This document shows, piece after piece, positions 1 to 9,014 of a stretch of 64,000 nucleotides of DNA (its first letter is position 1; every line of letters starts with the position of its first letter). The stretch covers positions 2,170,001-2,234,000 of the forward strand of contig NZ_CP047156.1 of assembly GCF_009834025.1 (NCBI RefSeq), in the 5' to 3' direction. Under the pieces are notes generated by a model that saw only the letters and a program-made list of their open reading frames with translations, searched no databases and was not told the origin of the DNA. The DNA is from Epidermidibacterium keratini (GTDB lineage Bacteria > Actinomycetota > Actinomycetes > Mycobacteriales > Antricoccaceae). The translations under genes and the position numbers were made by a program.

Positions 1-294
1 ATCGGTGACGCCTGCCATCGCGGATATAGCAAGGATCGGGTCATTCACGGGCACCTGGATGGCAGAGCGCACCGCCGCATCGCGGGTGCCGCCGTACACG
101 TCATAGGTGCCGAGTACGTCGGCGAGAAACAGTGAGTGGAAGCCGCCGCGCTCGAGCAGTCGGGCGAGCTCGAGCCAGTGCTCGAGCTTTGCGTAGTCAG
201 TGCTGTCGTCGTCGTCGCGGGTCCACAGCCCGGCCGACTGGTGGCCGACACAGGCCATGGCAAAGGCGTTGAGCAGCATCGTCCGGTTGGTCAT
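1..294 (-). CDS. LLM-class flavin-dependent monooxygenase, N-terminal part (runs off left edge)
   Basis: Reading from 294 down to 1 gives 98 residues of an FMN-dependent monooxygenase of the NtaA/SnaA/DszA type. Visible are the N-terminal strand with the conserved GHQSAGLW segment and the FDS-type region 'ARLLERGGFHSLFLADVLG', followed by the substrate-loop region. The ATG at 294 overlaps the stop of the upstream transporter gene by 4 nt (ATGA), so the two are translationally coupled. Known members oxidise chelators, sulfones or sulfonates with FMNH2 from a separate reductase. The SAM-IV riboswitch ahead of the operon argues for a sulfur-scavenging substrate, which is inference. The C-terminus lies outside the window. 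Confidence 0.88.
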   Translation of the reverse strand, partial: MTNRTMLLNAFAMACVGHQSAGLWTRDDDDSTDYAKLEHWLELARLLERGGFHSLFLADVLGTYDVYGGTRDAAVRSAIQVPVNDPILAISAMAGVTD

Positions 295-1637
295 CGAGAC
301 ACCTCCTGGAGTTCGGCCGACCGCTCGTCACGCGACGGCCGGGTCTCTGGTGCGAGGAACGCGCCGAGCGCCGACAGCAGCGAGAGTACGGCGAGGTAGC
401 CAGCGACCAGCCATGGATCGCCTCCGCTCGTGGTCAGCAGCGTGGCCGCGACAAGCGGGGTAATGCCGCCGCCGAGTACGGCGCCCACCGCATAGCCGAC
501 CGAGGCGCCGCTGTAGCGCATGTTGGTCGGAAACAGCTCGGCGAAGAAGGCGCCCTGCGGACCGTACTGGCTGTCGTGTCCGACGTTGATCCCGAGCACG
601 AACGCGAGTGTGATGAGTACGCCGGACCCGGTGTCGATCAGCGCGAAGGCCGGTGCGGTGAAGACGGCGGTGAAGAGCGCGCCGAAGATATAGACCCGGC
701 GGCGGCCGAGGCGATCGGACAGCCAGCCCCAGAACGGCGTACTTGCCAAGCCCAACACGGACGCGATCAAGGTCGCGGCGAGTCCGAGGTCGGCGCCGTC
801 CGAGCGCACCTCGCTGACGATGTAGGTCAGCGCGAAGACGGTGTAGAGCGTGTAGATGGCGTTCTGGCCGAGCCGCATGAGCACCGCGTAGAGCACCTCA
901 CGCCAATGCGAGCGCAGCACTTCACGCACGGGGGAGCGCAGCGTCTCACCGCGAGCGCGCAACGCGACGAACTCGGCAGAGTCGTTGACTGCCAGGCGCA
1001 CGATGAGGCCGATCACGACGAGTACGGCGCTCAGCAGGAACGGGATGCGCCAGCCCCACGCCAGGAAATCCGCGGTGCCCAGCAGCCCGTGCACCGTCGC
1101 GTAGGTCGAGGTAGCGAGGATCATGCCGGCGGCCGAGCCGGTCTGGGGGAACGCGCCGTACAGTCCGCGCCGCCGCGCGGGAGCGTGCTCGACGGCCAGC
1201 AGCACCGCGCCGCCCCACTCGCTGCCAGCCGAAAGTCCCTGCAATAGCCGCAATGTGGTGAGCAGAATCGGTGCTGCGACACCGATCGTCGAGTACGTCG
1301 GCAGCAGCCCGATTGCGGTCGTCGACAGCCCCATGACCAGCAGGGATCCGACAAGCACGGCCTTGCGGCCAATGCGATCGCCGAGGTGACCTGCGAGCGC
1401 GCCGCCGAGTGGACGGGCCAAGAAACCCACGGCGTACGTCGCGAATGCCGCGAGTACGCCGCCAGCCGCAGATGCGTCGGGGAAGAACAGCGGCCCGAGG
1501 ATCAGAGCCGACGCGGTGCCGTAGAGATAGAAGTCGTACCACTCGACGGCCGTGCCGACGAACGACGCGAGAGCGACCCGTCGGCGGCTTGTCGGCACGG
1601 GCGGTGGGGTGGACGGGGACAGGGATGGGGCAGACAT
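291..1637 (-). CDS. MFS transporter, metabolite:H+ symporter (MHS) type
   Basis: A 448-residue, 12-helix major facilitator. The first helix region (EWYDFYLYGTASALILG, about residues 32-48) and the loop motif GxLGDRxGRK (about 84-94) are typical of the MHS/ShiA-ProP branch, and a second copy GWLSDRLGRRRV sits mid-protein. These proteins import small organic acids, osmolytes or related metabolites with protons. The gene is first in a two-gene operon with the flavin monooxygenase and lies directly behind a SAM-IV riboswitch. It therefore probably imports an organosulfur compound that the monooxygenase then attacks. The ATG at 1637 follows a GAGGG ribosome-binding site about 12 nt upstream. The substrate is inferred only from context. 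Confidence 0.9.
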   Translation of the reverse strand: MSAPSLSPSTPPPVPTSRRRVALASFVGTAVEWYDFYLYGTASALILGPLFFPDASAAGGVLAAFATYAVGFLARPLGGALAGHLGDRIGRKAVLVGSLLVMGLSTTAIGLLPTYSTIGVAAPILLTTLRLLQGLSAGSEWGGAVLLAVEHAPARRRGLYGAFPQTGSAAGMILATSTYATVHGLLGTADFLAWGWRIPFLLSAVLVVIGLIVRLAVNDSAEFVALRARGETLRSPVREVLRSHWREVLYAVLMRLGQNAIYTLYTVFALTYIVSEVRSDGADLGLAATLIASVLGLASTPFWGWLSDRLGRRRVYIFGALFTAVFTAPAFALIDTGSGVLITLAFVLGINVGHDSQYGPQGAFFAELFPTNMRYSGASVGYAVGAVLGGGITPLVAATLLTTSGGDPWLVAGYLAVLSLLSALGAFLAPETRPSRDERSAELQEVSR

Positions 1638-1665: not shown

Positions 1666-1790
1666 GCCCGGAGGCTTGCACTTGCCGGTGCCCGAAGCTG
1701 GCACCCGCCTGGTCGTTATCCGGAGCACCCCACCGCAAGTACGAGGGTTGCTGCCCAGCGAGCCGGAACTTGGCGCTGGAACTCGTGACC
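1666..1790 (-). promoter_or_regulatory. SAM-IV riboswitch
   Basis: On the minus strand this leader shows the SAM-IV architecture. P1 is GGUC/GACC (1790-1787 with 1715-1711). P2 is CCAGCG/CGCUGG. The conserved core is GGCAGCAACCCUC followed by GCGGUGGGGUGCUCCGG. A P4 hairpin GGUGCC/GGCACC and the 3' GCAAGUGC element follow. Block for block it parallels the mycobacterial SAM-IV RNA I remember (GGUCAUGAG..., CCGGCAACCCUCC, GCGGUGGGGUGCCCCGG). It ends about 30 nt before the transporter start, so it probably controls initiation or early termination of the transporter-monooxygenase operon in response to S-adenosylmethionine. Confidence 0.92.
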
Positions 1791-4703: not shown

Positions 4704-6161
4704 GTGGCCTGGAAACGTCCGTGGTCGTTGCGACGTCGCCTCGTCCTCTCCGTTACCGGGCTCATCCTCATCGCCAGCATCGCTATCGGGATCGCGCTCC
4801 CGCTGATCCTCCGTGACTTCCTGATCAGCCAGGTCGACACGCAGCTCAACGACACCGTGAAGCGCGCCACGAGCTACGGCACCGACCCCGACGACTCAGG
4901 CGCCTACGGATCACCCAAAGGCCTGGTGCAGCCGGGGCAGTCGGTCGGCACCCTCGCTGCCTTCAGCGACGGCACCTACCTCACCGCGTGCGCCTATCTG
5001 AACAAGGACGGCAAGCCCTCAGGGTGTACGCCGGACATGATCGCGGCGATCGGTCAGCTGTGGGTGAGCGACGAGCCGAAGACCGTGCACCTGTCAAACC
5101 TCGGCGACTACCGCGTCACCACGGTCAAAACCTCCGACGGCATTTTTGTGGCCGGGTTACCGATGAAGGACACCAACGAGACGGTGAGCCGCCTGATCGT
5201 CATCGAGGTGACCGTGTTGGGCGCCGTACTCGTCATTGCGGCCATCGCGACCGCGACGATGATCGACTGGACCCTGCGCCCGCTGCGGCGGGTGGCCTCG
5301 ACCGCGAAGCGGGTCAGCGCGATGCCGCTCGACAAAGGCGAGGTCGACCTTGCGGAGCGGGTCGAGTCGAAGGACGCCAACCCGGGCACGGAGGTCGGTC
5401 AGGTCGGCGCCGCGCTCAACCAGCTGCTCGATCACGTCGACAACGCGCTCGATGCCCGGCACCGCAGCGAATCTCAGGTGCGCGCGTTTGTCGCCGACGC
5501 CAGCCACGAGCTGCGCACTCCGCTTGCCGCGATCCGCGGGTACGCCGAGCTGACCCGGCGGACCCGGAGCGAGATGACACCCGATGTCGCCCATGCGCTG
5601 ACCCGCATCGAGTCCGAGAGCGAGCGGATGACCGCGCTCGTGCAGGATCTGCTGCTGCTGGCGCGGCTCGACTCGGGGCGGCCACTGCGCCGTGAACCGG
5701 TCGACCTGGCGCCGCTGATCATCGACGCGGTCAGCGACGCCCAAGCCGCCGGTCCGGCGTACCAGTGGGATATCGACCTGCCCGACGAGACGGTCGAGGT
5801 CACCGGCGATGCGTCGCGGCTGCACCAGGTGCTCGCCAACCTGCTCTCCAACGCGCGCACGCACACTCCTGAAGGCACCACGGTGACGACGTCGCTGTCG
5901 CGTACGCCGGACGGTACCGGCGCGGTCATCGAGGTCACCGACGACGGGCCGGGCATCCCTCAGGCGCTGCAGACGCAGGTCTTTGACCGGTTCGCCCGCG
6001 GCGACTCCTCGCGCTCGCGCGAGAAGGGCAGCACGGGGCTCGGCCTGGCGATCGTGCAGGCTGTGGTCGCCTCGCATGGTGGACGCGTGGCGGTCAACAG
6101 CGTGCCCGGACGCACGAGCTTCCGGGTCACACTGCCCATCGACCGCCGCGTGGGTCCGTAG
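4704..6161 (+). CDS. Sensor histidine kinase, partner of the OmpR-type regulator
   Basis: A 485-residue membrane kinase. A first transmembrane helix (about 12-36) is followed by an extracytoplasmic sensor of about 125 residues with two cysteines (96 and 108) that could form a disulfide. A second helix (about 162-188), HAMP, and a HisKA box FVADASHELRTPLAAI with His268 come next. The HATPase domain has the N box (NLLSNARTHTPEG), DDGPGIP and STGLGLAIV. It starts with GTG right after the regulator stop. Its stop abuts the stop of the convergent antiporter gene with no spacer, so the two transcripts must overlap. Confidence 0.94.
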   Translation: MAWKRPWSLRRRLVLSVTGLILIASIAIGIALPLILRDFLISQVDTQLNDTVKRATSYGTDPDDSGAYGSPKGLVQPGQSVGTLAAFSDGTYLTACAYLNKDGKPSGCTPDMIAAIGQLWVSDEPKTVHLSNLGDYRVTTVKTSDGIFVAGLPMKDTNETVSRLIVIEVTVLGAVLVIAAIATATMIDWTLRPLRRVASTAKRVSAMPLDKGEVDLAERVESKDANPGTEVGQVGAALNQLLDHVDNALDARHRSESQVRAFVADASHELRTPLAAIRGYAELTRRTRSEMTPDVAHALTRIESESERMTALVQDLLLLARLDSGRPLRREPVDLAPLIIDAVSDAQAAGPAYQWDIDLPDETVEVTGDASRLHQVLANLLSNARTHTPEGTTVTTSLSRTPDGTGAVIEVTDDGPGIPQALQTQVFDRFARGDSSRSREKGSTGLGLAIVQAVVASHGGRVAVNSVPGRTSFRVTLPIDRRVGP

Positions 6162-7862
6162 TCACTCGAGGCGTTCGAGGCGTGCTTCCTCTCGGTCGAG
6201 CAGGGCCAGAGCGGCGGTGAACGTCTCGGTTCGGTAGGCGCCGATCGACTGCTCGTCGAGCACGGCCTCGCGCAGTGCGTCCAGATAGCGCCCCTGCAGC
6301 TGGTGCACCTGCTCGCGTGCGTCGGGCCGGCCGGCGAGCGGGGAGAGAGTGTGTCCGCTCAGCAGGGGTGAGAGGCGGCGCGAGATTGTCTCGGCGAGCT
6401 TGGGATCGACCTGCTCGCCGTCGACCTGCTGCTCCGACAGCGGCCCGAGCCGGGCGACGACCGTGTCCGTGGCTGAGCGCATCAGCTCCACCAGCTCGGC
6501 GCGTTTCGCTTCCTTGGTGGGCGACTCGAAGCGCATCGCCCGGATCACCGCGGGCAGCGTCGCGCCGAAACCGAGCAGCGTGACGACGGCGACGTTAAAC
6601 GCGATGAGCACGACCGTCGAGCGATGCGGCAGTTCATAGGGGATTGTCTGTGCCGCAGCGACTGTGATGGCCCCACGCATCCCGGCCCAGCCGAGTACGA
6701 CGCCACCGCGCCAGTTCAGTCGCTGTTGCTCGTGATAGTCAGAATCGGCGCGGACCTGCGCGACCCGGCGCTCCCAGACCGCGAACTTTCGCTCCTGCGC
6801 TTGGGTTTGCGGCTCGAACTGCGACAGGCGCTCATCGGCGGCTTCGATCCGCCGCTGCGCGCGGTCGCGGCGTCGGGGCTGGCGCCGTTCGCCGAGCAGC
6901 AGCACCGCCACGCCGAGGGCCCGCAGCACGATGAGCAAGCCGCACACGAGGGCCGAGCCGGCGATCACGACCCACACCGAGTCGTCGCTGAGTGATCGCG
7001 CCAGCCCCGGAAGCTGCAGGCCCATCAGCAAAAACAGCGCGCTCTCGCCGATGAAGCTGATTGTCGCCCAGTTGATCGCTACGGTCTGGCGAGTGCGCGC
7101 CGAGGTGTTCTTTGCCGATGTCACGCCGGTGGCGATGCCGCTGACGACGACCGCCAGGACCCCGGAGGCAGCGAGTTCCTCAGCCGGAAAGTAGGCCGCG
7201 AACGGCACGGCGAAGGACACCGTGGTCGCCAGCACCGGATCATCGATCCGCCCTCGGACCCAGCCCGACGCGGCTCCGACGACCAGCCCGACGAGTACGG
7301 CGCCGACCACCGCCCAGGCAAACTGGCCGGTCGCCTCCGCAAACGAGAATGCCGAACCCACGGAGGCGATCGCCGTACGCAGCACGACCAGCGCTGACGC
7401 GTCGTTGACCAACGACTCGCCTTCCAGCAGCGACATCAACCGGGGTGGCAGGCCCAGGCGGCGTCCCACCGAGGTCGCGGCGACCGCGTCCGTCGGGCTC
7501 ACGACGGCGCCGAGCGCCACCGCGAGGCCGAGCGGGATCTGCGCAAACACCAGGTTGACCACGAACCCGATGACGACCGCGGAGCCGGCGACCAGGACGA
7601 CCGACAGCCAGGTGATCATCCGCAGGTTGCGTCGCAGGTCGGTCACCGGGAACCGCACGGCGCTGGCATACAGCAGGGGCGGCAGGATGCCGGCGAGCAC
7701 CAGCTCGGGGTCGATCTCAATATCCGGTACGCCGGGGAGGTAGCTCCCGGCGATACCGAGCACGACGAGCAGCAGGGGCGTGGCGAGTCCGGTCCGCCGC
7801 GAGAACGCCGACGCGACAACGATCACCGTGAGCGCGGCCAGCGCGATGACGAATACCTGCAT
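6162..7862 (-). CDS. CPA1-family Na+/H+ antiporter (NhaP-like)
   Basis: A 566-residue monovalent cation/proton antiporter. The membrane half (residues 1-410) has about 12 helices with the family landmarks PPLLYA, ALGAVVSPTDAVAATSVGRRLGLP and SLLEGESLVNDASALV, where the conserved Asp pair is expected. The region after GLQLPGL is interrupted by a charged loop rich in Arg and Gln (about 325-380), and a membrane segment WAGMRGAITVAAAQTIP follows. The remaining ~130 residues form a charged cytoplasmic tail (helical, RLSPLLSGH...) likely to be regulatory. It exports Na+ or K+ and imports protons for pH and salt homeostasis. The end abuts the kinase gene tail to tail. Confidence 0.93.
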   Translation of the reverse strand: MQVFVIALAALTVIVVASAFSRRTGLATPLLLVVLGIAGSYLPGVPDIEIDPELVLAGILPPLLYASAVRFPVTDLRRNLRMITWLSVVLVAGSAVVIGFVVNLVFAQIPLGLAVALGAVVSPTDAVAATSVGRRLGLPPRLMSLLEGESLVNDASALVVLRTAIASVGSAFSFAEATGQFAWAVVGAVLVGLVVGAASGWVRGRIDDPVLATTVSFAVPFAAYFPAEELAASGVLAVVVSGIATGVTSAKNTSARTRQTVAINWATISFIGESALFLLMGLQLPGLARSLSDDSVWVVIAGSALVCGLLIVLRALGVAVLLLGERRQPRRRDRAQRRIEAADERLSQFEPQTQAQERKFAVWERRVAQVRADSDYHEQQRLNWRGGVVLGWAGMRGAITVAAAQTIPYELPHRSTVVLIAFNVAVVTLLGFGATLPAVIRAMRFESPTKEAKRAELVELMRSATDTVVARLGPLSEQQVDGEQVDPKLAETISRRLSPLLSGHTLSPLAGRPDAREQVHQLQGRYLDALREAVLDEQSIGAYRTETFTAALALLDREEARLERLE

Positions 7863-7965
7863 ACCGCGATCGTAGGAGGCCCACTGTGGTGGCGATCGGG
7901 GCCAGGCGAGGGCGTCCCGAGCGAGCGTTCGGACGGGAAGATCCCTGCCATGACGGCAAAACGTC

Positions 7966-7984
7966 TATTGACGATCCGTCAATA
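7966..7984. promoter_or_regulatory. 8-3-8 palindrome overlapping a TTGACG -35-like element
   Basis: TATTGACG (7966-7973), ATC, CGTCAATA (7977-7984) is a perfect inverted repeat. TTGACG inside it resembles a -35 box. A second hairpin-forming repeat, AGCGCCA/TGGCGTT with a 5-nt loop (7988-8006), follows at once. The arrangement looks like an operator over the promoter of the structured RNA that ends at 8140. No clear -10 box at standard spacing was found. Confidence 0.5.
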
Positions 7985-8003
7985 ACGAGCGCCAATGTTT
8001 GGC

Positions 8004-8140
8004 GTTGCATACCTCCCGGTTGGGGGAATGGGGCTGCGATCATAAGTCCACGAAGTGCCGACGGGACATCGCCTTCGTATCGACAGATCGCGCAACAACA
8101 GGCTGTGGCCGTCACTTCGGTGACGGCCACAGTACTTTTT
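8004..8140 (+). ncRNA. Candidate structured small RNA or leader RNA
   Basis: The 378-base gene-free stretch 7863-8240 has no plausible coding region but is rich in nested pairing. GUUGC (8004-8008) pairs with GCAAC (8092-8096). Inside are CCUCCC/GGGGG (8012-8026) and GCGAU...GUCC (8036-8049) with GGAC-AUCGC (8064-8072). The loop ACGAAG (8050-8055) can pair with CUUCGU (8073-8078), an H-type pseudoknot. A strong intrinsic terminator follows. Nothing on the plus strand upstream could need that terminator, because the antiporter gene is antisense. An RNA starting here is therefore the simplest reading, either a free sRNA or an attenuated leader of the SDR gene 100 nt downstream. I do not recognise an Rfam family. 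Confidence 0.55.
8103..8140 (+). terminator. Intrinsic terminator (13-bp stem, UUCG loop, U-run)
   Basis: CTGTGGCCGTCAC (8103-8115) pairs perfectly with GTGACGGCCACAG (8120-8132) across a TTCG tetraloop, followed by TACTTTTT. The T-run exists only on the plus strand, so it terminates plus-strand transcription. The nearest plus-strand gene upstream ends 1.9 kb away behind an antisense gene, so the terminated transcript must begin in the intergenic region. Confidence 0.92.
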
Positions 8141-8240
8141 GCAGTTCGTCTTCTTCGGCCTCAGCGTTCGCCCGGGGGCCCGGGGGTGCCGTGCGGGCAC
8201 GTCGTACGCTCGGCGTACCCCCAACTGTGAGGAGAGCGAC

Positions 8241-9014
8241 ATGGACCTCGGAATCGCTGGCAAAGCAGCGCTGGTGTGCGCGTCGACCGGTGGGCTCGGC
8301 GCCGCGACGGCTCAGGCCCTCGCCGCGGAAGGCGCCCGCGTCGTCTTCAGCGGGCGACGCGGTGAGCTTGCCGAGAAGGAGGCGTCGGCGTACGACGGCT
8401 CGGTCGGCATCGAGGCCGACTTGAGCTCGGTTGAGGGCGCCCAGCAGCTACTCACGAAGGCTCGTGAGGCCGTCGGTGACATCGACATCCTGGTGCTCAA
8501 CGGCCCTGGCCCCAAGCCCGGCACGGCGTTGGACGTCAACGGTGAGGACATGCTCCAGGCGGTCACCAGCCTGGCGATCGTGCAGCAGTCGCTCGTCGAG
8601 GCATGCCTGCCGCATATGCGCGAGCAGAAGTGGGGCCGCATCCTGTCGATCGCCTCCACCGGCGTCGTCGCGCCGATCACCGGGCTCGCGCTCTCCAGCG
8701 TCGGGCGGATGGCGCTCGCGGGATACCTGAAGTCGCTCGCCAACGTCGTCGCCGCCGACGGCGTCACGGTCAACATGCTGCTGCCCGGACGGATCGCCAC
8801 CGACCGGGTGGGCCAGCTCGATGCGAACGCCGCTGAGCAGTCCGGCAAGAGCGTCGAGGAGGTCGCGAAGAGGGCCGCGGCTTCCATCCCGGCCAAGCGC
8901 TACGGCGCCCCGGCGGAGTTCGGTGCCACCGCCGCGTTCCTGTGCAGTGACCTCGCGTCATACATCACCGGCTCGGCGGTCCGTTGCGACGGCGGTCTGC
9001 ACACGACGCTGTAA
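8241..9014 (+). CDS. SDR-family protein with altered catalytic residues (BKR-like)
   Basis: A 257-residue Rossmann protein like 3-oxoacyl-ACP reductase. The cofactor loop reads CASTGGLGAAT instead of TGxxxGxG, and the NNAG motif is replaced by LNGPGPKPG. The catalytic serine is present (SIASTG). At the YxxxK position the sequence is SSVGR, so both the catalytic Tyr and Lys are replaced. The C-terminal SDLASYITGSAVRCDGG is normal. It resembles a known 'BKR-like, imperfect tetrad' SDR subgroup, so it may have a different chemistry or a binding role. The ATG at 8241 has GGAG 6 nt upstream; longer in-frame readings begin inside the terminator. A structured leader precedes it. Confidence 0.87.
   Translation: MDLGIAGKAALVCASTGGLGAATAQALAAEGARVVFSGRRGELAEKEASAYDGSVGIEADLSSVEGAQQLLTKAREAVGDIDILVLNGPGPKPGTALDVNGEDMLQAVTSLAIVQQSLVEACLPHMREQKWGRILSIASTGVVAPITGLALSSVGRMALAGYLKSLANVVAADGVTVNMLLPGRIATDRVGQLDANAAEQSGKSVEEVAKRAAASIPAKRYGAPAEFGATAAFLCSDLASYITGSAVRCDGGLHTTL

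Follow-up and report, generated by a model that had tools for sequence, protein, structure and literature searches.

The actinobacterial stand-alone small RNAs B11/6C, MrsI and Ms1, all from mycobacteria, are intergenic, have their own promoters, carry a C-rich arm and end in a hairpin terminator. In terminator-type riboswitches and attenuator leaders, a metabolic gene is preceded by a structured segment and then an intrinsic terminator. The locus described here, from a 64-kb stretch of the Epidermidibacterium keratini genome (the window; its genome is G000), has features of both. With the mycobacterial RNAs it shares the broad group of organisms, an intergenic position, a hairpin terminator and a C-rich arm, along with a promoter of its own that is here predicted, but the segment 7860–8260 matched none of 4227 Rfam models at gathering score, and at E values up to 10 it gave a single hit, to a plant-virus model (E = 6.8). 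It resembles the leaders in that a structured segment and an intrinsic terminator precede a metabolic gene; it differs from them in that we found no antiterminator, that a promoter-like box follows the terminator and that relatives can carry the gene without the RNA. On the basis of its sequence, we propose that 8004–8140 probably encodes a stand-alone small RNA, about 135 nt long, which would have a promoter and a terminator of its own.

As the first-pass annotation had described, the segment lies in a gap of 378 bases (7863–8240) between a CPA1-type Na+/H+ antiporter gene on the minus strand (6162–7862, 5′ end at 7862) and an SDR-family oxidoreductase gene on the plus strand (8241–9014, start codon at 8241), which is followed by genes for an ArsR-type regulator and a tricorn-like protease. 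The gap contains an intrinsic terminator on the plus strand (8102–8140, −27.2 kcal/mol), in which 13 perfect pairs (8103–8132), or 14 when a G–T pair is counted (8102–8133), enclose a TTCG (UUCG) loop and are followed by the tail ACTTTTT with its run of five U. This too agrees with the earlier description. It is the sole perfect hairpin of at least 13 bp in the window, and none occurred in ten dinucleotide shuffles. No upstream gene explains this terminator, as would be expected for a small RNA gene: the closest plus-strand gene upstream stops at 6161, 1.9 kb away, and the intervening antiporter gene is on the minus strand, in line with the earlier statement that no plus-strand gene could account for it.

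Two further observations concern genes of the window. Canonical SDRs carry the catalytic tyrosine and lysine in a YxxxK motif; reading the window SDR protein by eye, we found LSSVG at this position (LSSIG in its orthologue from genome G002), so these catalytic residues seem to be missing. Separately, a SAM-IV riboswitch (1673–1790, minus strand, 88 bits) precedes, at a distance of 35 nt, an MFS gene that resembles those of metabolite/H+ symporters (291–1637, minus strand). This MFS gene overlaps the start of a gene for an NtaA/DmoA-type FMN-dependent monooxygenase; the three form a candidate operon for the uptake of sulfur compounds or methionine.

A blastn search with 7950–8240 against 61 genomes (60 relatives and the window's own genome) returned one clear match, in G002, with 77% identity over 8003–8111 (E = 2.7 × 10−13); the next best had E values of about 10−3. 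G002 belongs to a different genus of the same family, and the match lies directly upstream of the SDR orthologue, which is 76% identical to the window SDR in amino-acid sequence. The limits of the match coincide with the predicted transcription start (the sequence begins with GTTGC) and with the terminator stem. Among the six DNA blocks that align between the two genomes over a 16-kb region, no other lies entirely between genes. The gene preceding the RNA is an aminotransferase gene in G002 and the antiporter gene in the window genome; an HpcH/CitE-like gene (1902–2732 in the window) lies further upstream in both, which indicates that the locus is syntenic, with differing genes in between. The genes immediately 5′ of the SDR gene differ in all five genomes of the family (loci L100–L104: the antiporter gene; glycosyltransferase-like and membrane genes; the aminotransferase gene; a P-type ATPase gene; and short open reading frames), which marks this as a variable spot.

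The conserved core spans 8004–8096 on the plus strand, and its transcription is predicted to begin at about 8004. R1, a covariance model built from both copies, scored them at 115 and 96 bits, values that are high by construction. A hand alignment of 93 columns contained 72 identical ones, including 22 consecutive bases, GCCGACGGGACAUCGCCUUCGU (8057–8078), that are the same in both copies. Insertions and deletions of 2, 1 and 4 nt within the block argue against a coding function, and the short frame that opens with an ATG around position 8000 is not kept in G002. Downstream of the core, G002 has a hairpin of 17 bp (−41.4 kcal/mol) that lacks a U-run. The sequence of this hairpin has diverged and a long unbroken stem is present in both genomes, which is the best sign of selection for a hairpin at this place. 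The RNA is conserved in relatives, on the evidence of one homologue (two of the five family genomes).

The conserved core can be drawn as four helices. P1 pairs GUUGC (8004–8008) with GCAAC (8092–8096) and is invariant, with a pair probability of 0.36 in the window copy and 1.0 in G002. P2 is a hairpin of UCCC and GGGG around GGUU (8014–8025; pair probability 0.18–0.46 in the window copy). P3, also invariant, pairs GCGAUC (8036–8041) with GAUCGC (8086–8091) at a probability of 0.99, and P4 is a hairpin of ACGAAG and CUUCGU with a 17-nt loop (8050–8078; stem pair probability 0.95–1.0). Differences between the copies avoid the helices (2 of 50 paired columns compared with 19 of 43 unpaired columns, P = 3 × 10−6, a post hoc value for a structure drawn from these same sequences), and both changes in paired columns fall in P2, where two pairs are altered on one side each and pairing is retained. 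Covariation in P1, P3 and P4 was absent from the comparison of the two copies, because these helices are invariant and only two copies are known. The segment 7990–8140 folds better than its shuffles (z = −4.68; 0 of 200 as good), and the signal is weak when the terminator is removed (z = −1.22; 25 of 200 as good), so the terminator supplies most of it.

The first-pass annotation had also suggested a pseudoknot between 8050–8055 and 8073–8078. This pairing is real, but it is the stem of P4, which is nested within 8036–8041/8086–8091 and would belong to a pseudoknot only together with another pairing. That pairing would make an H-type pseudoknot: AUCGC in the P4 loop (8068–8072) could pair with GCGAU (8036–8040), to the exclusion of P3, in both copies. 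Matches of this type arose in 600 of 20,000 shuffled loops (about 3%). In the folding model, such a pseudoknot is possible and is not favoured, the nested P3 having a pair probability of 0.99. We also considered that the RNA might represent a novel class of small RNA switch, in which GCGAU (8036–8040) would alternate between GAUCGC (8086–8091) and AUCGC of the P4 loop. The first pairing would close the P1/P3 fold, and the second would form the pseudoknot and free the 3′ strand, so that switching between them would mask or uncover the invariant loop. Each copy retains both possibilities; we regard a switch of this kind as distinctly unlikely.

Upstream of the core, the −35-like box TTGACG (7968–7973, plus strand), which can be read directly, forms the first part of the palindrome TTGACG-ATC-CGTCAA (7968–7982; TTGACGATCCGTCAA), as the earlier description had it. 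The palindrome is not kept in the G002 homologue, which has TTGACC alone. The distance from the TTGAC box to the conserved block is 30 nt in the window and 31 nt in G002. The whole genome contains two exact TTGACGNNNCGTCAA sites, counting the copy at 7968–7982; given the one other site, 7968–7982 may be an operator. From its position relative to the −35-like box and the start, CAATGT (7993–7998, plus strand) is a weak candidate −10 element, with CACTAT at the corresponding place in G002. A scan for consensus promoters detected none. Transcription would initiate at about 8004 from the putative promoter at 7968–7998, and stand-alone transcription with intrinsic termination appears, from the sequence, to be the simplest reading. 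The small RNA that the first-pass annotation had offered as one of two readings has thus gained a homologue in another genus, a conserved block that ends at the predicted limits of the transcript and a −35-like box at a similar spacing.

Its other reading was that the RNA is an attenuating 5′ leader of the SDR gene, starting at 8004, in which a ligand or factor would set the balance between termination at 8140 and readthrough. In both genomes the RNA immediately precedes the SDR gene despite a different gene on its other side, and the two conserved and mutually exclusive pairings (P3 and 8036–8040/8068–8072) look switch-like. However, such a leader would need an antiterminator that excludes the terminator, and in neither genome did the core pair with the 5′ arm of the terminator better than shuffled sequences did (z = +1.05 and +1.29), which leaves attenuation unsupported. 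The hairpin of G002, without a U-run, also argues against it. In addition, the SDR gene seems to have a promoter-like element of its own. A candidate −10 box, TACGCT (8205–8210, plus strand), lies after the terminator and 30 nt before the ATG, and similar boxes occur in G002 (TAGGCT) and G004 (TAGGGT), 29 and 31 nt before the ATG, respectively. These TANGNT-like boxes are thus found irrespective of the RNA, which G004 lacks. Finally, a model search of 18 SDR loci from the order, which took in both strands, found the RNA at 2, both of one family, and not at the other 16, so it is not recurrently tied to this gene; inspection by eye covered the SDR-upstream stretches other than those of L090, L091, L093, L097 and L099, which were not oriented. 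The SDR orthologues of the three remaining family genomes (G001, G003 and G004) lack such an element. We consider a leader unlikely.

The distribution of the RNA appears to be narrow. The covariance model of both copies was positive in two of five family genomes (G000 and G002), did not find the RNA in two genomes of G002's own genus and gave no second copy in the window genome. With its filters switched off, the model was also applied to 43 kb surrounding the SDR genes of G001, G003 and G004; its best match there (E = 0.049, 18.7 bits) sits inside a long open frame of G001. Nothing convincing was found in 298 genomes of the order, 394 of the class and 198 of the phylum, samples that overlap with one another and with a further order sample of 397; searches of more than 40 genomes scored few candidates per genome under stricter filters. 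Twelve of the 298 order genomes reached an E value of 0.5, two of them through the known copies. The other order matches (E = 0.06–0.4) were taken as chance, with alignments inspected for the 10 best of 13. Matches in G199 and G179 (24–25 bits) were rejected; they fall in the 3′-terminal part of the same protein-coding gene in two congeneric species.

Other searches gave the same picture. A DNA search of the 397 order genomes with the G002 copy singled out G000 (E = 4.9 × 10−13); 96 genomes had matches below 10−3, mostly through the G+C-rich hairpin. A pattern for the loop motif found 26 stretches among 84,980 species, none with conserved flanks; this collection may omit the window's own genome, and no actinobacterial record in it was recognisable as G002, even though that genome contains the pattern. 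For these 26 stretches and six viral ones, the model gave E values no better than 0.22, and the flanks were not conserved. A search of phages and plasmids returned no match to the RNA.

This patchy occurrence (two of five genomes), and the differing genes that precede the SDR gene in all five, would fit a remnant, such as a degenerate mobile element or an element bounding a variable region, whose terminator merely insulates the SDR gene. By contrast, the 22 identical bases and a substitution pattern that spares the helices suggest that an RNA is under constraint, and neither a second genomic copy nor a phage or plasmid match was found. We therefore hold a remnant to be very doubtful and continue to favour a stand-alone small RNA.

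Such an RNA might act in trans. Pairing with the start regions of the SDR, ArsR and antiporter genes was no better than in shuffles (z = −1.62 to +1.16). Complements of the loop with up to three mismatches numbered 79 in G000 and 56 in G002, compared with 30 and 30 for a reversed-pattern control; apart from the RNA gene itself, no site in either genome had fewer than two mismatches, and the search singled out no target. The next best places in the search with the G002 copy were a site in G090 that matches the G+C-rich hairpin (E = 2.2 × 10−7) and a DppC-like gene (E = 2.3 × 10−7). Of the G002 core, 29 of 30 bases are the reverse complement of a stretch of a DppC-like gene in G003 (L004, about 1495–1535), as would be seen if the RNA were antisense to the mRNA of this ABC permease. 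A blastn match in G003 (101–124 of the first query) also lies within a DppC-like gene. But a copy of the RNA was not found in G003, and G000 and G002, which carry the RNA, lack the complementarity: each RNA paired with its own site at −33.4 (G000) and −39.4 kcal/mol (G002), compared with −61.4 and −73.7 kcal/mol against the G003 site. The antisense explanation thus fails on both counts and is extremely improbable; with an equally good E value for the hairpin match in G090, the G003 match probably arose by chance in G+C-rich sequence.

Together, these results suggest a new candidate orphan small RNA of narrow distribution, known from two genomes of one family. Its transcript would adopt a closed fold, in which P1 joins the two ends of the core and which also contains the C-rich hairpin P2 and the long stem-loop P3/P4, and may act in trans on an mRNA or a protein by way of either the C-rich arm of P2 or the P4 loop, which is invariant (GCCGACGGGACAUCGC). 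If it is transcribed, an actinobacterial family of which few genomes have been sampled would have a structured RNA that is not yet listed; its start and end are predicted, and one of its loops is invariant. General views would not change through the window RNA alone; it would modestly extend the catalogue of bacterial small RNAs.
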